A stretch of DNA of 64,000 bases from Rhodopirellula baltica SH 1 (GTDB lineage Bacteria > Planctomycetota > Planctomycetia > Pirellulales > Pirellulaceae): positions 2,542,001 through 2,606,000 of the forward strand of contig NC_005027.1 of assembly GCF_000196115.1 (NCBI RefSeq), in the 5' to 3' direction. The translations under genes were made by a program, and so were the position numbers. Of this stretch, positions 10,195-46,894 are shown one piece after another. The notes beneath the pieces are model-generated. The model did no database searches, was not told where the DNA came from, and was given only the letters and a program-made list of their open reading frames with translations. Position 1 is the stretch's first letter. The number at the start of each line of letters is the position of its first letter.

Positions 10195-10571
<377 letters not shown>

Positions 10572-10575
10572 CTTC

Positions 10576-37225: not shown

Positions 37226-37915
37226 TCAATCGGTGGTCGGATTGTTTTGGTGCCAAGACACATGATCGAGCGACATTCGCACGCTCTCCAAGCGATAATC
37301 CGGAGCGGTCAGTGGAGGATCGTGCTCAATGACATAGCTCGCAATTTCATCGGTCTGATGAGCCAATTGCCAATCGACTTCTTCCACCGATGGCAAGAAA
37401 CGATCAAGAAATGATCGATTGACGATGTAGCTGTATGCACCAGTGATTTCGTCAGGGGGACACATCAGCAGATGCGGAGCGACAAGCCGATTCAGGTTGG
37501 CTTGGCTAGAAAACTGCGGGTTGTTGTAGGACAGATGACAAAGGTCCCACTCAATCTCATCGGGGATATCGACGTCATCCAAAAAGCGAAAGAAATCCGG
37601 ATGAATCGTGACGTCGTCCTCCAGAATAATGATCGGCAACTGATGTTCGGCTCGATCGTAGAACTGAATGTGCGACAGAGTGCACGCGGCTGTTCCCCAA
37701 AGATGTTGCAAATCCGTTCGCCAGCGTCCCTGCAACACGTCCGGAAGTCCTCGATGCTCGAAGTCTTCCGTTTGCGGCGTTTTCGCTTGGATGATTTGCG
37801 AATTCCGAAAACCAGCACGACGCAAATGTTGTTCAACTTGGTTGACACGGTCACGCGACTGCTCGTCGAGCGTGCTGATGACAAACGTCGGTGTGTCTTC
37901 GTCAATGTTTTTCAT
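37226..37915 (-). CDS. Glycosyltransferase family 25-like protein
   Basis: A 229-residue soluble glycosyltransferase resembling LPS galactosyltransferases of family GT25. It has the motif TPTFVISTLDEQSRDR at the start, WGTAACTLSHIQFY and PIIILEDDV, where the paired Asp residues bind metal and sugar nucleotide, and later GAYSYIVNRSF. ATG at 37915 leaves 7 bases after the stop of the upstream gene; a TTG at 37933 would overlap it. Likely acts with the upstream transferase on a cell-surface glycan. Confidence 0.82.
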   Translation of the reverse strand: MKNIDEDTPTFVISTLDEQSRDRVNQVEQHLRRAGFRNSQIIQAKTPQTEDFEHRGLPDVLQGRWRTDLQHLWGTAACTLSHIQFYDRAEHQLPIIILEDDVTIHPDFFRFLDDVDIPDEIEWDLCHLSYNNPQFSSQANLNRLVAPHLLMCPPDEITGAYSYIVNRSFLDRFLPSVEEVDWQLAHQTDEIASYVIEHDPPLTAPDYRLESVRMSLDHVSWHQNNPTTD

Positions 37916-37922
37916 AAACGGC

Positions 37923-39296
37923 TCATCGAACAATCGCGAATTGTGTCAGCGATCGAGCATTCCCGTGCACAACCGGTATCAAATGACCGGATCGATTGAC
38001 GACAAGGCCATCTGGCATGACGCGAACTTCGCCACGCTGACGGTCGTGCACGCAGTAGTTCCAGTCCTCCGGAACTTCGATCCAACGTGTTGGGTCACTG
38101 TGGCAATAAAGATTCAACGCAGTTTGGTCACCCCAATCCGTGGTGCCACGTAGAGCGTTGTCTCGCAACAGAATCGCTTCGCCAAAATATCGGCTTAGAG
38201 TTCGGGCCGTTCCGGCGCCGAATCCGCTGTTGAGAAACGGATTGGAAGCAAACAGTTCAAACGCACGTCGCCGCATCGTGGGATTTTCGATCGTACGCGT
38301 CCATCCGCGAATGGCGTTGTTAGAAGGAAAACCGCGAGGCTCTCGGACCGCCAGAATCTTGTCTGGGTACTGTTGGGTGTGCTGCCAAAGCGAATCCAGT
38401 CGGCCCTGGAACAACACGTCGCCCGCATCCCAGTATGCCACTGGTGTTTCGGCAGGCAGCTCCGACACGATGTCTCGAAAATCAACCAGACGTCTGACGG
38501 GAGGAAGTTGACCGTTGTACCGCCGGCGAATGAATCGCACGTTCGGTAAGCGTTGGATTCGATCCATTTCGGTCGGGTACAAACCGTATCCGACCGCGAT
38601 GACTTCTTGATTGTTGCCAGCAGCTCGAAGTGTTCGCAGAAACACATTCTGGAAACGGTAGATATCGCGGCGATTGAACGCGACCAAAACTTTCGCGTTC
38701 TTGATCGCTTCGGGATCATCCAAAGCAATTGAAGATTTCACAGAAGACAAATTGCCCGTCTCGCAGCATCCGCAGGATTGACGAGCTGACAAGTGCCATG
38801 CTCTGGCACCGCTTAAATAGTCGATTCTCGCGCCGCGACGGCGGATGTCTTCGCACCGGCAAAGACATTCGCACTTCCCAGGTTCCCATCGAAATGGATC
38901 TCGCAGCAACGCAGATCGGCGAAACAAGGTCGCCCCCATCGCCACATGTCGCGAATGTCGATGGGATGATGATTCGCCCAAGTAGTCAGCCGCAAACGCT
39001 CCGTAGTTGGATCGCGCAATCAATCCATGGTGCAAACGAGAGACGCAGTCCTTGGCGAGAACAACATCGTCATCCAAAAACATCAAAAACTCAGATCGTG
39101 ATCGACGGACCGCCTCATTCCGCGTTCGAGCAATCGTGGCGATTCGACTGGCATCGCCAACGAGAGGCTGCCCAACGACGCGGTGCACGTTCAATCGAAC
39201 ACCGACCTGCGAGTTGATCGCATCGCGAACCGAATCGTGGAGCGGACCGTCGTCTCGGGTCAGCAACGCCAGATCGATTGAAGGCAAAGAATTCAT
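37923..39296 (-). CDS. Two-domain glycosyltransferase
   Basis: A 457-residue protein. The N-terminal domain is of GT2 type: DLALLTRDDGPLHDSVRDAI, ARTRNEAVRRSRSEFLMFLDDDVV (DxD-type metal site) and MGATLFRR. A Cys/Arg-rich patch (ECLCRCEDIRRRG, SCGCCETG) separates it from a second domain that begins near 205 with VLVAFNRRDIYRFQNVF and includes VAYWDAGDVLF, which also looks like a sugar-nucleotide site. So two transferase activities may be fused. The gene is 9 bases downstream of the small unknown protein and 7 bases upstream of the GT25-like gene, an operon-like arrangement. Confidence 0.8.
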   Translation of the reverse strand: MNSLPSIDLALLTRDDGPLHDSVRDAINSQVGVRLNVHRVVGQPLVGDASRIATIARTRNEAVRRSRSEFLMFLDDDVVLAKDCVSRLHHGLIARSNYGAFAADYLGESSSHRHSRHVAMGATLFRRSALLRDPFRWEPGKCECLCRCEDIRRRGARIDYLSGARAWHLSARQSCGCCETGNLSSVKSSIALDDPEAIKNAKVLVAFNRRDIYRFQNVFLRTLRAAGNNQEVIAVGYGLYPTEMDRIQRLPNVRFIRRRYNGQLPPVRRLVDFRDIVSELPAETPVAYWDAGDVLFQGRLDSLWQHTQQYPDKILAVREPRGFPSNNAIRGWTRTIENPTMRRRAFELFASNPFLNSGFGAGTARTLSRYFGEAILLRDNALRGTTDWGDQTALNLYCHSDPTRWIEVPEDWNYCVHDRQRGEVRVMPDGLVVNRSGHLIPVVHGNARSLTQFAIVR

Positions 39297-39305
39297 CGAT
39301 CCGCC

Positions 39306-39773
39306 TCAGTGACAACCAGCGGTATTCCCCGGTGGATCCATGTTGTAGTGGTTGACCGAGCGGTCCTCCGGAAGCGGCGGGTAAAACTCTGCGCTTTCCG
39401 CCGCGGTCATGCCAGCTTCCATTTCGAGAAGTGATTGCCCGCTTTCTCGAACGAAGAGAATGCCTTCCACCTTCGTCCGGTCCAGCATCAATTGAGCCTT
39501 CTGGCCGAGCTGAATGCCTTCGAACCACTCTCCCTTATCGAAATCGACATCCGTCGGCGACTTGGGAACGAACAGAGACTTCACGTCGCTCGGAAAGAAT
39601 GTTCGTTTGATTGAAAGCTTCGGCGACAACTTTTGATGCGCGACCACCAGCATTGGATAAGTGCCATCATCGCATTTCTCAAACGAGATGGTGGCGAGCT
39701 CAGGAAACCGAGGCGGAATGGAAATGGTGCCTGACAAAGCCATCGCACGAAGTTGCTCGGGACTTTTACTCAT
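39306..39773 (-). CDS. Small unknown protein encoded with glycosyltransferases
   Basis: A 155-residue cytoplasmic protein of no recognised family. ATG at 39773 gives MSKSPEQLRAMALSGTIS. The body is beta-rich (MLVVAHQKLSPKLSIKRTFF, KVEGILFVRESGQSLLEM) and the C-terminus ends MDPPGNTAGCH, with an unusual final Cys-His. It begins the unit small protein, two-domain transferase, GT25, all on the minus strand with gaps under 10 bases. It could be an accessory or a substrate of the transferases; this is inference. Confidence 0.55.
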   Translation of the reverse strand: MSKSPEQLRAMALSGTISIPPRFPELATISFEKCDDGTYPMLVVAHQKLSPKLSIKRTFFPSDVKSLFVPKSPTDVDFDKGEWFEGIQLGQKAQLMLDRTKVEGILFVRESGQSLLEMEAGMTAAESAEFYPPLPEDRSVNHYNMDPPGNTAGCH

Positions 39774-39934
39774 GATGTTGGCCTCGGATAAGATACTAAT
39801 GGACGGTTCGTTAGCCCCACTGGAATGGAAGGCTATTCCTTTTCGACACGGCATGCAAGTTTCCGAGCATGTGTTGAGCGAGAACGGGCCAACGTTTTTC
39901 GTTTCTTCCCGCCGATCTTCCATTTGGTGAACTT

Positions 39935-41452
39935 ATGCATCTGCGTTTCTGGTTGTTCTGCCTCGCACTGGTCTACGGTTCTTCTTGCCAAGTTGAACTG
40001 GCCGCTCAAACCGAAACTCAGACTGGTGTTCTGCTGATTCCAGAGGACGTTTACGACCAAATCCCAACGAGAGCAGCTCTTCGCGCACCCTCTGCTCCAA
40101 CGACGGAGTCTGCCGAGACCGTTGGCCGGCCCGACGTACTGAGCAACGTTGCACCTTTACCGGACGTCCCGCCGGGCAACGATTCAGTGTTGATGGTCCC
40201 TGCGGCGGATGCGATGTATAGCGCAGCACCGGGGATCGATCAAAATTGGGGACCGAACGATTCCATTGAGCTACCTGACCGCGTCGACCTGCGTGAGTAT
40301 CTTCCAACGCCGGGCAAACAATCTCAGAACGATTGTGTGGCTTGGGCAGTTGCCTATTCGGCCTACTCCTGCCAAATCGGTCAGGAACGTCGACGCAAAC
40401 CAACGTTCGCCAGCGACCAATTCAGCCCCAAGTATGTCTACGACAATCTCTCCAGCGACGGAGGTGGACTAACCATCCTTCAAGCCGTCAACTTTCTAAA
40501 GCTGAATGGTTGTGCATCACGAGCAAACCTGGAGACACCGAACGGACCAATCTCATCCCGCGCCGTCGTGGAAGCCAACACCTTCAAATTGATGGACAAC
40601 GCACGGGCACGCAACTTGAACGATATCAAGCTGTATTTGTACGAGGGTTATCCGGTTGTTTTGGTCGTTCGAATGAAAGGCGATTTTCGCGACGACGCTG
40701 CGTTGTCTTCACCTTATCTTTGGACCAACGATCCGTCAGACGATGTGAACCACCACGCCGTCACGGCCGTCGGCTATGACGATCAAAAAAAGTCACTCTT
40801 GCTGATGAATTCATGGGGAACACAGTGGAAAGACCAGGGATACTGTTGGGCATCCTACGACAACTTCACGACAATCGGCCAAAACAATTGGTGCGCAGAA
40901 GCCCACGTGTTGAAGGTCAAGAAAAGTGCCCCCTTCGATGCCTGGATGGCTCAACAAGATAGCGACGGTCCAGCCAATCCATTCGGTCCACCACCAACGA
41001 TTCTCTGGCGTCACTTCTCACTAAAGAACGATCGCAAAGTCTACGAAGACAACCAGCTCATATCGCCGTCTTCGTGGAAAGTGGACGGTTTGGCTTGCAA
41101 CGCCAAGAACCTATTCCTACTTGCACGTGATCAGACCGTCTATCAGATGAACGATGACCTGTCTGGTGTGAGCTGGTCGCATCTGAGTCGATCACCACTG
41201 GACGATGAAAAGGTGTGCATGATGGCCGCCGTCAAATCCCACGCCCTACATGTCTTGACCGAAAATCAAACGCTCTACAAATTCGAATCCGAATCAGCCA
41301 ATTGGCGAACCGTTTCTTTGCCACAAAACGATTTGAAACCGATCGACCTGAGAACGATCAATGACAAGATCCGAGTGATCACCGATAAAGGAACGGTCTA
41401 TCAGCAACAACCGGATGGCGAATGGAACGAACTGAAGCAAGTTCAGCCGTGA
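39935..41452 (+). CDS. Secreted papain-like (C1A) cysteine protease with C-terminal propeller-like domain
   Basis: A 505-residue protein with a signal peptide (WLFCLALVYGSSC, possible lipobox-like Cys). After a Pro/Ala-rich region of about 75 residues, the protease domain has Gln and Cys134 in GKQSQNDCVAWAVAYSAY, the catalytic His274 in VNHHAVTAVGYD and Asn292 in LLMNSWGTQWKDQGYCW. Residues about 345-505 contain repeats like LIWR/KVYEDNQLISPSSW, DQTVYQMNDDL and NQTLYKFE, as in tectonin or propeller repeats. It probably acts outside the cell on proteins or as a surface-bound enzyme. Its stop directly abuts the stop of the large kinase gene on the other strand. Confidence 0.88.
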   Translation: MHLRFWLFCLALVYGSSCQVELAAQTETQTGVLLIPEDVYDQIPTRAALRAPSAPTTESAETVGRPDVLSNVAPLPDVPPGNDSVLMVPAADAMYSAAPGIDQNWGPNDSIELPDRVDLREYLPTPGKQSQNDCVAWAVAYSAYSCQIGQERRRKPTFASDQFSPKYVYDNLSSDGGGLTILQAVNFLKLNGCASRANLETPNGPISSRAVVEANTFKLMDNARARNLNDIKLYLYEGYPVVLVVRMKGDFRDDAALSSPYLWTNDPSDDVNHHAVTAVGYDDQKKSLLLMNSWGTQWKDQGYCWASYDNFTTIGQNNWCAEAHVLKVKKSAPFDAWMAQQDSDGPANPFGPPPTILWRHFSLKNDRKVYEDNQLISPSSWKVDGLACNAKNLFLLARDQTVYQMNDDLSGVSWSHLSRSPLDDEKVCMMAAVKSHALHVLTENQTLYKFESESANWRTVSLPQNDLKPIDLRTINDKIRVITDKGTVYQQQPDGEWNELKQVQP

Positions 41453-44400
41453 TCATTTAGCCCCTGTTTCGTCAATTTTCAATGTCCTCGCGACACGAAA
41501 CCCGAGATAGGGATGGAACGTGTAGAGCTTTTCTTGCTCTCGTTTGGCCGATCGCATGGTCGTTGCGATGTAGAAAACCGCACTGCCTCGAGCGACTCGA
41601 TATGCAGATTGGTTGTCGATCAAACCATCGCTGTTGTCGACAATCATCCGTTTGTTATGACGACGTGATGAATCATGTGTTTCGCACCACTCCATCACAT
41701 TGCCGAGCGTGTCGAAAAGTCCAAACGAGTTAGGAAGCAGTTGCCGGACCGGTCGGAACAAAACCTGCGCTGATTTTGCAGAACTCTCCGTCGTCCAGGC
41801 GTATTGTGGCAGTAGCTCGGGAGCATACCCGTAGTAACGCGGCGTGTTGGTTCCTGCTCGGCATGCAAATTCCCATTCGGCTTCCGTTGGCAATCGATAC
41901 CCGGTGCGTTCCAAGAAGTTCTTCGGTCTCTTGATCCCTCCAGGCGACTGATAGTCTCGCTGGATCTCCTCGATCGATGGGTAACACATTTCCGCTTCCG
42001 GAACATGTTCCTGCTCGCTCAGCCAGCGACAATATTTAATTGCATCAAACCATCCAACTGAGGTCATCGGACAATCGGGCTGGGTCGTGTACTGGGTCGC
42101 ATAACTTGCATCGGGATCAAATCGACGGAATTGCTCCAGGGTGACTTCCGAATCCGAGATCGCAAATGATCGTGGAATCTTTGTTTGAATGGGAACTTCC
42201 AACGAGTGATCCCGAAACAATTCGTGTCCGGGCGACCCCATCACAAAATCAACCGGCCCGCGAAGATGAACCATGGTCTGGCCTTGTCCATTCCGGTTCC
42301 AGATTGGCGAGAACTCATCATCGCTGAGATTCACTTCACCCGGCTGCAATCCGGGATCCACCTGGGGTGATTCCGCGAAATCGATTCTTTTTGTGACCGA
42401 ATCCCAGCCCCAACGATTGGCCAGGTAACGACAAATCGAATGCAGAGATGCGTTCGGGTCATTGCTTCCCCATTCCTCGATCATCGACTTGAGTGCTCGC
42501 AATTCGTGAACTGGCAACTGTTCAGGTCGATACCGAGCCAACGAGGCAATCAACGCAACGCGACGGGACATGCTGGATTCAATGCGAAGTTGTTTCAGCA
42601 GCAAAGACGGCGGCACACTCAAAGATGCCATCCGATCGATCAAAAAGGATCGCAACCGAGGATCGCCCGCGTCCTCGAGTGCCTTCCAAAGATGATTGGC
42701 CGATCCAAGACGCGTCAACGCGACAATAGCGTTGGCCTTCCGGCTGGCAACATGGTCTTTTTGCTCATCCGAAACAATCGGACGGCTCCAAACAGACGCC
42801 GCGACGGTCTCGTCGCTATCCTCCACCAAAGACAAACTGGTCAGTCGAAACCCATCTGCCGCTAAACGTTTTGATTCCGCCAAATGCTCGCCCGGAGGCA
42901 GTCGATTGAGTGTCCGCGATTCGTGGGTCCCACCGTTCCACCAAACTGCCGAATAGCTGATCGTGTCTTCGTCAAATTCACCCGGTGGATTCAATCGAAT
43001 GTCGGTTTGGTATTTCTCGAGCTGCAATCGCGATCGAAAATGGTAAGGACTATCATTCCATGTGTCCTCAGCCATTGGAGGTGACACCAATCGATGACGA
43101 ACGGAACTGTAACGATCGTTCCCATTGGGATCACGCCGCTTCAGGTTGGACTTCGGCACGAACCCACCTTCGATGAGCGGCCCCCACCCCTTTGATTGAT
43201 GCTCTGAATCAGAAAGCCCCAAGTAAATTTTTGCGTCAATGGTGTCGCGGGGGAGTTCCGTCCAAAGAACACCATACTCCTGCAGTGCATCAGATTCTGG
43301 GATGTCGCTGGACGTCAGATGATCAGGAATGGCAGTCACGTCGCAAGGATAGAACGAATCATCCCGCATTGATTGCTGGAGTGTATCAATCGACTCTCGG
43401 TCAACGCCGCGAGTGAATTTCCAATCCAGCCCATCGCGTTTGAAAGCGGCTGCCAAGTACGGCTCGTCTCCAATCGCGTAAACGCGGACGCATGCCGGTC
43501 GATAGGAACAGCTCTGCAACTGACGAGCGATCGATTCAAAATCATCGAGTCGACATTTCTGAATCATCGCGAAATCTTGGGTGACAAACCCATCCAGCGA
43601 TTGAATCTGTTCATTCAGTCCTGCGTCTACCTCTTTGAACAAGCCACCTGGACTGTCGTCGATCCACTTCGGCTCGGCCTCCAACATCAACTCATCGTTG
43701 AGCGATTGCGAGACGTAACCTGGGTTCTCCATCGCCACTGACAACAGCAACTCAAACTCGTCCTTCTCCGCGACGACGAGCAAATCCTTCAGGATGGGAT
43801 CGAGCGGCTCGATGCATTTCGAGATCAAAAACGCCGCGTTCAATCGAACATCGCCGTCTTGCCCGGATGGGTCGGCGTCGGTTGACGGGTCAAAGTACTT
43901 GGATGCGGGCTGAACAATGTGTCGGGCAATTTTTGTGAAGCCCGGTGTGAGCTCACCAACTCGCGTTGGGTTTTGATTCACGATGGCTTCCACCAATCGC
44001 GAAGCATGACTTTCCCAAAGCGAGTTTTCCGCATCCAGCTGAGACAGCACCCAAGCGAATCGCAATTGTTGATCTTCGTCCAAAGCCTGAGATTGATATC
44101 GTGACCAGAGCATGTTTTTGGCGATATCGGATTGCAACCGAAGTCGCTCGGCAATCACCCCGAGCGTGTCCGGCCCCGATTGCGGAATCGCATCCACCAA
44201 TGGCTTGACCTGCGTCGAGTCGTCTTGCACCAACGCCAGTCTCGCAGCCAAAATTTCCCGAGGTGTTTTGGACGCATCATTCAAAACGGCTTTCAACCGA
44301 GGGTGTGCCTCGTCACGAACCAGTTGAATGGTGTTGATCACGTCCGGCATCATTTCCATGTCGGCCGCCAACAAACGAGACACCGTTGAATCCGTTCGTT

Positions 44401-46894
44401 GTTTCGCCAAGCGATTCGACATGTCGTTGTTAATCGCCGTGACCGCCAGTCCCGCGATCAAGAGAACGATTGCGGCGAAGGCCCATCGTGTGCCGTGATA
44501 GCGAGCTGATGCGGCCATCAGCTTGGACTGGTCTTCTGTCCGCTGTGCCGACTGGGTCAACGCGAGAAAACGAATGTATTCCAAACCGCTGGGTAAGAAC
44601 CGATTCTCGCGATTACTTTTCCAGTACTCGGTGAGATCGTTCAAACGAAGACGAGCCCGGCCCCGAACAGTTTGACGATCGCTCTGAGTCAACCAATCAC
44701 GGATTGGCTCCACCAAAAAGTCGTGTGTGAGTTGATAACAACGCAGCGTTGAATCGGATTCCACGCCGTCCATCGCCGCCGTGGGCGTGATCAACCGAAG
44801 TTCTCCATCGAGAGCCTCGATCAATTCTTCGAAGTTTTCATCATCCAGCGACGCAACCTGCTGAAGCCGATCGACGTCTTTCATTTGACCTTTGATTTTC
44901 GTGCCGCGTTCGGGCAGCAACTCAGCCAAAACCGCTTTCGCGGGATCACGCAGACGACGATGGTGCGGCGAAGCGTTTGATCCTTCAAACGTTGATTGCA
45001 GATATCCGATGTCGATGCCTTCGGTGCCACCGAACTCAGCCAGCGTCTTCAGGTTCCATTCGCGTCCCTTCAGCATTTGCGCCAGAACGGCCAAGTGAAT
45101 CGAGATCACCTTTCCGTTTTCTTGAACGGCATCAACGATGCTATCGATGAACTTCTTTTGCTCGTCCGTGATACGACTCAAATCATTGGGCAAACAGCCA
45201 TACGCTCTCCCAAATTCGGTCAAGACATAGCGTGCGTGACGCAAATCGAAACGATCCACCGCGATGCAATTGACATCTTGAACCAGACGCAAATCCAGCT
45301 CGTGAAAGAACTGCGTGGCGGGCATCCAAAAGTCGTCCCGGATCAGCAGCAAGCATTGCACGTTGGCTCCGTCGCACTGCCGAATTGCATCGACAAGCAC
45401 TTCGTCTCGAATTTTTGGGTGGGCGTGCAACCACTGTTCGAACTGATCAACAATGACCAGCACTTTCTTGCCGCCGCTAACGCCCTTTTTCCGCAGCGAC
45501 GACATCGCACCGATGAGCGTTGACTCAGCCGCAGTGCTCGAATCCAGTTTTTGAAGTGCCGAAAGCAATCGAGATTCAGTGTGTTTCGCGTTCGCTTCCA
45601 CCGAAACGACTTCGACCGCTGGATCCAATAGAGGAACCAATCCTGCCTGCATCAGGGAAGACTTTCCTGATCCAGACGGCCCATAAATCAATGCAACGCG
45701 AAAAGCATCTTCGGCTTCGCGAGCATCGATTCGAATTTTGAGCTGACGCAGGACTTCAGGAACTCCGTGTGCATCTCGGGCTCCTGGAACCAATTGCAAA
45801 AAGAACCTGCGATCGTGGCGATCAAACGCCCGCAGGCCTTTCGGGATGACACGTGATTCTGATTCATCTCCCTTCGCGTTAGCCTCGACGCCGGGTGGTG
45901 CCCACTGATTGGCAACCGGTACGAACTCAGCCGATAGATCATCGGTGTAGTCGACCGTGGTTTCATTCGATTGAAATGTGCGTAGATCAGCCGCCATCGC
46001 GGCTGCGTTCGAATAGCGATCCGACACTCGTTGGGCCAACGCTTTCAAACAAATGCGTTCAAGCTCAATCGGCAATTGTGGGTTGAACTGGCGAAGCGGC
46101 GTCGGCTCTGCGCGAACAATGTCCTGCAGCAACTGCTGGCTGGATCCACCACCAAAGGGGCGACGACCAACCAGCAATTCGTACAACACGATCCCCAATG
46201 CAAAAATATCGGCGCGACCATCGACGAGGTGGCCTTCCCCGCGTGCTTGCTCCGGACTCATGTAGGAATATGTTCCAATCAGTAACCCAGCTCGGGTTGG
46301 ACGCGGCGCGTCATCGCTCATCGCCAGTCCAAAATCTGTCAACCAGGCTCGATCCTGAGTGTCGATAAGGATGTTGCTCGGTTTGACATCGCGGTGGACC
46401 AAGCCATTCGAATGTGCGTGGTCCAAGGCGTCGGCAATGGACGCGGTCCAAATCAGCCCTTCCTCAAGCGACGGTTTGCCCTTGAGAATTCGCTCTCGCA
46501 GATCGACGCCTTGGATGAATCGCGAGACGACAAAGAACGGAAACTGATCCGATTTGCCAACGTCATAAACCGGAACGATGTTGGGGTGATCCAGTTTCGC
46601 GACCATCCGAGCTTCGGACGACCACTGAAATTCATCGTTGACGTCATCCAATGATCGTAGCGGAACTTTGATTGCGACGTCGCGATTGAGCGACTCATCC
46701 TTCGCATGAAAGACCGAGCCGAAGCCACCGCTTCCGATACGCCGAACGACCCGATAACGCCCAATCCAATCGGGCGTTTCGATCTTAGGAAGCGACTTGC
46801 CCGAAGCAATGGTTGCGTCCACCTGAGACGTCTCGGATGGACGTCCCGTGTTGCCAGGTTGAGTAACGCTTGGAAGGTCCGATTCGGAAGTCAA
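41453..46894 (-). CDS. Ser/Thr kinase - STAND-like NTPase - TM - SUMF1-fold protein (1813 aa)
   Basis: Multi-domain membrane protein. Kinase at about 47-305 with GSGGFGSVF, VHRDVKPSN (166-174) and DFG near 187. A P-loop domain at about 375-740 has GPSGSGKS (405-412) and VLVIVDQFEQW (478-488), similar to STAND-type AAA domains fused to kinases. One transmembrane helix at about 803-822 places the last 990 residues in the periplasm, where HEAT-like and RPACVRVYAIGDEPYLAA-type (BTRD1-like) repeats precede a SUMF1/FGE-sulfatase fold at about 1548-1800. The C-terminal core reads RGSAVFYIATTMRSAKR and lacks the two catalytic Cys of true formylglycine-generating enzymes. Start is TTG at 46894 with GAGG 8 bases upstream. 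It may sense a surface signal and phosphorylate a cytoplasmic target. Confidence 0.85.
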   Translation of the reverse strand: MTSESDLPSVTQPGNTGRPSETSQVDATIASGKSLPKIETPDWIGRYRVVRRIGSGGFGSVFHAKDESLNRDVAIKVPLRSLDDVNDEFQWSSEARMVAKLDHPNIVPVYDVGKSDQFPFFVVSRFIQGVDLRERILKGKPSLEEGLIWTASIADALDHAHSNGLVHRDVKPSNILIDTQDRAWLTDFGLAMSDDAPRPTRAGLLIGTYSYMSPEQARGEGHLVDGRADIFALGIVLYELLVGRRPFGGGSSQQLLQDIVRAEPTPLRQFNPQLPIELERICLKALAQRVSDRYSNAAAMAADLRTFQSNETTVDYTDDLSAEFVPVANQWAPPGVEANAKGDESESRVIPKGLRAFDRHDRRFFLQLVPGARDAHGVPEVLRQLKIRIDAREAEDAFRVALIYGPSGSGKSSLMQAGLVPLLDPAVEVVSVEANAKHTESRLLSALQKLDSSTAAESTLIGAMSSLRKKGVSGGKKVLVIVDQFEQWLHAHPKIRDEVLVDAIRQCDGANVQCLLLIRDDFWMPATQFFHELDLRLVQDVNCIAVDRFDLRHARYVLTEFGRAYGCLPNDLSRITDEQKKFIDSIVDAVQENGKVISIHLAVLAQMLKGREWNLKTLAEFGGTEGIDIGYLQSTFEGSNASPHHRRLRDPAKAVLAELLPERGTKIKGQMKDVDRLQQVASLDDENFEELIEALDGELRLITPTAAMDGVESDSTLRCYQLTHDFLVEPIRDWLTQSDRQTVRGRARLRLNDLTEYWKSNRENRFLPSGLEYIRFLALTQSAQRTEDQSKLMAASARYHGTRWAFAAIVLLIAGLAVTAINNDMSNRLAKQRTDSTVSRLLAADMEMMPDVINTIQLVRDEAHPRLKAVLNDASKTPREILAARLALVQDDSTQVKPLVDAIPQSGPDTLGVIAERLRLQSDIAKNMLWSRYQSQALDEDQQLRFAWVLSQLDAENSLWESHASRLVEAIVNQNPTRVGELTPGFTKIARHIVQPASKYFDPSTDADPSGQDGDVRLNAAFLISKCIEPLDPILKDLLVVAEKDEFELLLSVAMENPGYVSQSLNDELMLEAEPKWIDDSPGGLFKEVDAGLNEQIQSLDGFVTQDFAMIQKCRLDDFESIARQLQSCSYRPACVRVYAIGDEPYLAAAFKRDGLDWKFTRGVDRESIDTLQQSMRDDSFYPCDVTAIPDHLTSSDIPESDALQEYGVLWTELPRDTIDAKIYLGLSDSEHQSKGWGPLIEGGFVPKSNLKRRDPNGNDRYSSVRHRLVSPPMAEDTWNDSPYHFRSRLQLEKYQTDIRLNPPGEFDEDTISYSAVWWNGGTHESRTLNRLPPGEHLAESKRLAADGFRLTSLSLVEDSDETVAASVWSRPIVSDEQKDHVASRKANAIVALTRLGSANHLWKALEDAGDPRLRSFLIDRMASLSVPPSLLLKQLRIESSMSRRVALIASLARYRPEQLPVHELRALKSMIEEWGSNDPNASLHSICRYLANRWGWDSVTKRIDFAESPQVDPGLQPGEVNLSDDEFSPIWNRNGQGQTMVHLRGPVDFVMGSPGHELFRDHSLEVPIQTKIPRSFAISDSEVTLEQFRRFDPDASYATQYTTQPDCPMTSVGWFDAIKYCRWLSEQEHVPEAEMCYPSIEEIQRDYQSPGGIKRPKNFLERTGYRLPTEAEWEFACRAGTNTPRYYGYAPELLPQYAWTTESSAKSAQVLFRPVRQLLPNSFGLFDTLGNVMEWCETHDSSRRHNKRMIVDNSDGLIDNQSAYRVARGSAVFYIATTMRSAKREQEKLYTFHPYLGFRVARTLKIDETGAK

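Follow-up and report, generated by a model that had tools for sequence, protein, structure and literature searches.

In Rhodopirellula baltica SH 1, a giant protein uniting a kinase, a STAND NTPase and an FGE-type domain (kinase-STAND-FGE, labelled KSF here) belongs to a gene cassette together with a small protein that carries a cysteine in its C-terminal tail (the tail protein) and a two-domain glycosyltransferase. The window analysed is a stretch of 64,000 nucleotides (contig NC_005027.1, positions 2,542,001 to 2,606,000), in which a tmRNA gene with the tag AEENFALAA was also noted at 10195–10572. The giant alone is of a known type; what is new is its cassette partners. The best explanation for the whole, which could well be right but is held tentatively, is that the tail protein resembles a RiPP precursor and is the substrate of the glycosyltransferase, and that the giant is a membrane receptor or regulator of the product.

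Among 24 loci encoding the glycosyltransferase, from 23 genomes, the tail-protein gene is adjacent in all 24 and the giant is present in 21; where loci were found with the glycosyltransferase or the tail protein alone as query, the giant accompanies them in 11 of 14. Two matches, L097 (G022, E 4.9e-4) and L098 (the second match in G007, E 1.6e-5), were dropped before counting as generic glycosyltransferases. In a set of 60 genomes, 10 have the tail protein, and these are also the ones with the glycosyltransferase (apart from one weak generic glycosyltransferase match); KSF is adjacent in each, and the five members of the genus without KSF also lack both partners. The genes for KSF, the tail protein and the glycosyltransferase stay together even where the convergent protease gene described below is missing (L050, and L054/L108 from another genus), and synteny of the region is stable across Rhodopirellula. 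Two largely shared order-level samples yielded the glycosyltransferase in 9/396 and the tail protein in 9/386 genomes, the nine genomes being the same, and the tail protein was found in 15 of 241 genomes of a family sample. A class sample searched with the glycosyltransferase profile (E<=1e-25) gave nine loci in 8/387 genomes. Six of these are new (L145–L150), five from family f22, which is not represented in the profile, and one from the genus of G711; all six carry the tail protein and KSF on the same strand, the KSF of L145 breaking off where its FGE domain starts, because the contig ends there. All cassette genes lie on one strand in L146–L150 and, including the protease, in L125 and L145. 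These counts are lower bounds, as an early tail-protein profile (A1) gave matches in no more than 2 of 392 genomes of a phylum sample; the divergent f22 tail proteins were found through the glycosyltransferase alone.

The loci without a giant are those of G068 and G819, where the contig extends less than 0.7 kb upstream of the tail-protein gene, and that of G180 (L107), where the glycosyltransferase is truncated (approximately 170 matched residues) and no KSF was found in the 5.4 kb upstream. With its divergent tail protein, whose end carries three GEC motifs, the G180 locus is possibly a decaying cassette. A kinase with a hydrophobic stretch and, by eye, WD40-like repeats is convergent to the glycosyltransferase in G068 (L106:4470-7694), as is an ORF judged WD40-like by eye in G180 (L107:70-1530); these are possibly an alternative receptor. 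G955 carries two cassettes (L147 and L148, on contigs C1 and C2), the second on a contig of 131.7 kb, possibly a plasmid.

Kinase-STAND-FGE fusions recur in Planctomycetes, and KSF-like middle parts were found in 24 of 60 relatives. At 22 KSF-like loci outside the cassette (five of them on contigs of less than 10 kb), the tail-protein and glycosyltransferase profiles gave no match at E<=1 with filters off; the basic function of the giant therefore does not need either partner, and the cassette represents a subgroup. In a tree of 36 rows, from which L145–L150 were left out and L054 and L066 were dropped as duplicates of L108 and L046, the cassette KSFs cluster, with three changes compared with a shuffled mean of 11.8 and none of 500 shuffles as low. 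The tree is compatible with a single origin of the cassette KSFs but equally with more than one.

A search of 12 other genomes of the genus found full-length KSF orthologues in seven, and the kinase, nSTAND1 and FGE domains are among the best conserved parts. All four cassette genes tested are under purifying selection. Against the two closest orthologues, dN/dS is approximately 0.07–0.08 for KSF, which shows that this ORF is not a chance one, 0.07 for the tail protein (0.13 against a third orthologue), 0.09–0.11 for the two-domain glycosyltransferase and 0.10–0.12 for the protease.

KSF is encoded by a single ORF with a TTG start (41453–46894, minus strand; 1813 aa). Its N-terminal Ser/Thr kinase domain (aa 47–300; 45995–46756, minus strand) matches Pfam Pkinase at 2.5e-42 and has intact catalytic motifs (VAIK, HRDVKPSN and DFG). 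It is followed by an nSTAND1 NTPase (aa 352–763; 44606–45841, minus strand), matched by PF20703 at 7.3e-22 (79 bits against a curated cut-off of 27.1), with a P-loop, the Walker A motif GPSGSGKS at aa 405, and a DQFE box (VIVDQFE). The kinase motifs and P-loop of the original prediction are thereby borne out, as is the STAND identity that it proposed for aa 360–745. The Walker A motif is kept in all 21 cassette giants; VAIK and DFG are kept in 20/20, and the HRD box in 19/20, of those whose N-terminus lies on the contig. Two of the 21 are cut by contig ends, L099 having no N-terminal kinase part and L145 stopping at the start of the FGE domain. The strongest hydrophobic stretch past the P-loop (aa 804–822; 44429–44485, minus strand) is a likely transmembrane helix by plain hydropathy, and fits the single helix that had been predicted. 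By plain hydropathy, the strongest hydrophobic stretch in the L126 giant lies elsewhere.

The repeats claimed beyond this helix correspond to a helical solenoid and two BTRD1-like units in an AF2 model of residues 790–1813, which was built from an alignment of seven sequences and is poor in its FGE part. The alpha-solenoid (approximately aa 849–1074; 43673–44350, minus strand) is modelled confidently, with ten-residue pLDDT means mostly of 82–90, and has weak ARM/HEAT-like matches. The two beta-alpha-beta units, at approximately aa 1108–1164 (43403–43573, minus strand; pLDDT means ~49–73) and aa 1316–1372 (42779–42949, minus strand; ~31–70), are of lower confidence, and coincide with BTRD1 matches in KSF or its relatives. 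At the place matching the first unit, Pfam BTRD1 is over the cut-off in L125 and L105 and just under it in L126; for the second, it scores 22.3 bits at KSF 1332–1370, just below the cut-off of 23. A fold search with the model returned, among the 50 matches listed, only generic helical-solenoid ones (TM-scores 0.07–0.18 by query length).

At the C-terminus is an FGE-sulfatase/C-type-lectin-like domain (aa 1549–1803; 41486–42250, minus strand), which matches PF03781 at 1.4e-35 (123.6 bits against a cut-off of 23.3). When the last 285 residues were compared with PDB sequences, the best match was TvpA (7.5e-15), and FGE, PorK/GldK and PvdO were also matched. None of 34 aligned FGE domains, which come from cassette and non-cassette proteins (two rows being duplicates), has the FGE-type pair CxxxxC at its C-terminal motif. 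Nor does such a pair occur among the final 80 residues of any of the 20 cassette giants with a C-terminus within the contig (L145, the 21st, is cut). An active formylglycine-generating enzyme is thus rejected, and the predicted SUMF1/FGE fold devoid of its two catalytic cysteines is upheld; inactivity as an FGE therefore characterises the family as a whole and does not single out this gene. The last 44 residues of the domain are 80–95% identical in the five closest orthologues, where this edge is about as conserved as the remaining domain or more so, and 52–57% identical in the two farthest. No reverse transcriptase gene adjoins KSF, the two RVT_1 matches lying approximately 107 kb and 2.15 Mb away. 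With the lectin-type 'variable' edge conserved, the part that varies in lectin-fold proteins diversified by a diversity-generating retroelement (DGR), and no reverse transcriptase as neighbour, the domain was rejected as a DGR target. The sequence evidence fits the predicted layout, in which the kinase and STAND NTPase lie in the cytoplasm and a single hydrophobic helix connects them to a lectin-like end that has no FGE cysteine pair. As the kinase depends on ATP from the cytoplasm, the solenoid-BTRD1-FGE part would be expected outside.

The tail protein (39306–39773, minus strand; longest ORF 39306–39923) has 155 residues counted from a conserved Met, conservation starting at 39773. By eye it has no signal peptide, and comparisons with Pfam (14 members), NCBIfam (five) and PDB profiles gave matches at chance level only; none of the members scanned matched a model of RiPP or glycocin precursors, and an AF2 model has a pLDDT of 39.5. 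Seven residues are invariant among 17 members (T16, P20, P24, F68, V108, A124 and C154), the last of them within the C-terminal tail AGCH (39309–39320, minus strand). A GxTAAE motif precedes the tail in 17 of 24 tail proteins, TAAE being missing in the other seven, and a cysteine lies within the last 25 residues in all 24. In 14 representatives, Cys occupies 27/350 tail positions compared with 22/1933 body positions (Fisher p 8e-11, kinship ignored); when the Cys-richest tail is removed, the counts are 21/325 and 20/1793 (p 6e-8, kinship again ignored). The tails are otherwise unalignable between lineages. Within the genus they have AGC and then H, D, R or W (or have PCQ), whereas other lineages have forms such as TCCH, TYCC, GECKTPGECRSVGEC and ASGCDDASGCDDA, and the tails of G711 and G1090 are rich in Gly and Cys. 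The Cys motif is multiplied in several tails (twice SQCDDGFLDR, twice ASGCDD, three times GEC). Multiplied Cys motifs, a conserved body and an adjacent modifying enzyme resemble RiPP precursors, and the tail is accordingly proposed as the glycosyltransferase substrate. Judged from alignments, the family would follow the RiPP-precursor pattern of conserved leader, variable core and adjacent modifying enzyme, although weakly so in Rhodopirellula. There the tail is short with little variation, and the last 35 residues contain one Cys in six of eight members and two in the other two.

The two-domain glycosyltransferase (37923–39296, minus strand) has a GT2 N-terminal and a GT8-like C-terminal domain. 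All 13 members scanned match Glycos_transf_2 at E<=0.5 (best 2.8e-10), whereas the similarity of the C-terminal domain to GT8 is weak (8/13 at E<=0.5, best 0.001). Its motif CECxCxCxD contains a CECxCxC core that is invariant in 15 aligned members and present in seven of seven further ones; the aligned set ends in HGNA, which L148 and L150 lack. No signal peptide was seen by eye. A PDB search with the profile (E<=1) listed eight chains, none of which is named as an S-glycosyltransferase. Directly downstream in the window is a GT25-type glycosyltransferase gene (37226–37915, minus strand), and a GT25-type gene occupies this position in 13 of the 21 giant-bearing cassettes. The GT25 proteins of the window, seven other loci of the genus, L104 and L126 form a homologous set, and GT25 genes are also present in L105, L108 and L127. 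In G040 (L099:4656-7220), the place of GT25 is taken by a fusion of the two-domain enzyme to a PF11051 mannosyltransferase, in an 854-aa frame. A further glycosyltransferase is encoded in 14 of the 21 giant-bearing cassettes.

A papain-like C1 cysteine protease with a signal peptide (by eye) is encoded on the plus strand (39935–41452), convergent with KSF and with abutting stop codons (TGA at 41450–41452; 41453–41455 is the complement of TGA). The catalytic C, H and N are conserved in 10/10 aligned members, and signal peptides were recognised by eye in those with a complete N-terminus. Residues ~370–505 contain repeat-like segments, propeller- or tectonin-like by eye, which can be aligned in all 10. 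In G711 and G1090 the genes run in line, in the order protease, tail protein, glycosyltransferase and KSF. An association of such giants with proteases, which the original prediction had suggested surveying, was found in part: the exported protease is a real member of the cassette, but an optional one, present in 11 of 21 giant-bearing cassettes. As an obligate partner it was rejected, since one locus of the genus itself, L050, has no protease gene, and the giant there lies directly upstream of the tail protein.

Under the best explanation, a cytoplasmic tail protein would present its variable, Cys-bearing C-terminal tail by means of a conserved leader-like body, and the two-domain glycosyltransferase would attach sugar to this tail, the Cys or its vicinity being the likeliest site. 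The GT25 or PF11051-type enzymes may help in this in some lineages, and in some the exported protease may process the product. The outer solenoid-BTRD1-FGE module of KSF would bind the product, or an envelope glycan carrying it, and a signal would pass through the nSTAND1 switch to the Ser/Thr kinase output. The predicted layout is most naturally read as ligand sensing by the outer part, a role that we infer from it. The weak points of the proposal are that no exporter was recognised among recurrent gene families flanking 19 cassette loci (limited flanks, some cut by contig ends), that the tail protein shows no signal peptide by eye, and that the Rhodopirellula tail is nearly constant, which sets it apart from a typical, diversified core peptide. 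The negative comparisons with RiPP and glycocin precursor models and with named S-glycosyltransferases, the seven tail proteins without TAAE, the differing hydropathy of L126 and the 22 KSF-like loci without partners count against it as well.

The main rival, a serious possibility if a less probable one, is control of an envelope glycan. The glycosyltransferases would make a glycan or polysaccharide of the cell surface, with the tail protein as an adaptor or regulator in the cytosol whose Cys serves in binding or holds a metal, and the giant would sense the state of the envelope and tune the glycosyltransferases by phosphorylation. GT2, GT8, GT25 and PF11051 families are linked to glycan synthesis, and enzymes of all these types are present in the cassettes; the want of a visible signal peptide in the tail protein, and the near-constancy of its tail within Rhodopirellula, would also suit an adaptor. 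However, no family pointing to polysaccharide export or sugar-nucleotide supply was seen to recur in the cassette flanks, and Cys tails that are multiplied and vary from lineage to lineage suggest a substrate for modification more than a surface for binding. A further rival, with the FGE domain as an enzyme of non-FGE chemistry acting on the tail-protein Cys in the way that the FGE-fold enzymes FGE and EgtB act on cysteine, is suggested by the invariant Cys of the cassette partner. It is nevertheless very unlikely, given the missing pair in all 34 domains, the absence of a DinB-type domain among the Pfam matches and a predicted topology that puts the domain across the membrane from the tail protein.

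The same architecture raises the question of a STAND-type anti-phage or conflict system, in which the FGE end would sense the invader, nSTAND1 would be an oligomerizing switch and the kinase the effector. The combination of nSTAND1 and FGE is a putative conflict architecture in the available portions of PMC10907252 and PMC8195603, and kinase models of PADLOC match KSF. The effector-STAND-sensor layout of Avs/NACHT-like systems is indeed present, but with a likely transmembrane helix between NTPase and FGE domain; all 25 PADLOC matches listed, of 37, fall in the kinase region, and the neighbours scanned contained no recognisable EAD adaptors or defence genes. Together with the conserved sensor edge, stable synteny across Rhodopirellula and the fixed partnership with the glycosyltransferase and tail protein, this makes such a system distinctly improbable, and the link to conflict systems drawn in the original prediction is not supported. 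That prediction also missed the co-inheritance of the giant with the tail protein and glycosyltransferases. A sensor of antigens diversified by a DGR is hardly credible: the C-type-lectin FGE fold and the best PDB match, TvpA, would suit it, whereas the conserved edge and the distance of the nearest reverse transcriptase matches speak against it.

Kinase-nSTAND1-TM fusions, including TM-WD40 types, occur in Planctomycetes and other complex bacteria. With its kinase, nSTAND1, likely TM helix and subsequent binding module, KSF is a member of this broad kind, and differs by its FGE/BTRD1 outer module and by the fixed linkage of its subgroup to the tail protein and glycosyltransferase. In the portions available of two sources (PMC10907252, PMC8195603), nSTAND1-FGE conflict proteins, some of them DGR-diversified, have EAD or peptidase partners and often DGRs. 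KSF shares nSTAND1 and a C-terminal FGE/CLec domain with them as described there, and differs in its likely TM helix, its kinase, the lack of a DGR, the conserved edge and the glycosyltransferase/tail-protein partnership. FGS domains and kinases are also described together in ternary systems in the accessible part of PMC7159879. Glycocins (sublancin, glycocin F), as far as the available text of PMC12457901 presents them, are similar in combining a small ribosomal protein, Cys near its C-terminus and a GT2-family glycosyltransferase alongside. The cassette differs from them in its twin-domain glycosyltransferase and in that no peptidase-ABC transporter was recognised in the same limited, partly contig-cut flanks of 19 loci, no leader cleavage site of the double-Gly type was seen by eye in the tail proteins, and most tail proteins have too few cysteines for nested disulfides. 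A like logic, with precursor, modifying enzyme and membrane kinase side by side, is found in the ComQXPA quorum-sensing locus as portrayed in the available part of PMC4008528, which has a histidine kinase and a prenyl transferase in place of a Ser/Thr kinase-STAND protein and a sugar transferase; no response regulator was recognised in the cassette, and release of a peptide is putative here. The glycosyltransferase/tail-protein cassette is not described in the available portions of PMC10907252, PMC8195603, PMC7159879 or PMC12457901, nor was a description of it found in the titles and abstract openings of the open-licence literature.

Taken to its full extent, the proposal would amount to glycopeptide signalling in planctomycetes, with a Cys-tailed ribosomal precursor, a twin-domain glycosyltransferase that puts sugar on the tail, an exported protease of the papain type and, as dedicated receptor, a giant whose lectin-like ectodomain acts on a eukaryotic-type Ser/Thr kinase by way of the STAND switch; in this complete form it is rather doubtful. 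For giant kinase-STAND-FGE proteins we know of no identified input. The fixed partnership with a probable substrate and a sugar transferase is a first concrete candidate for what one subgroup of KSF proteins senses or controls, and the cassette offers a new candidate class of ribosomal peptides or proteins bearing sugar.
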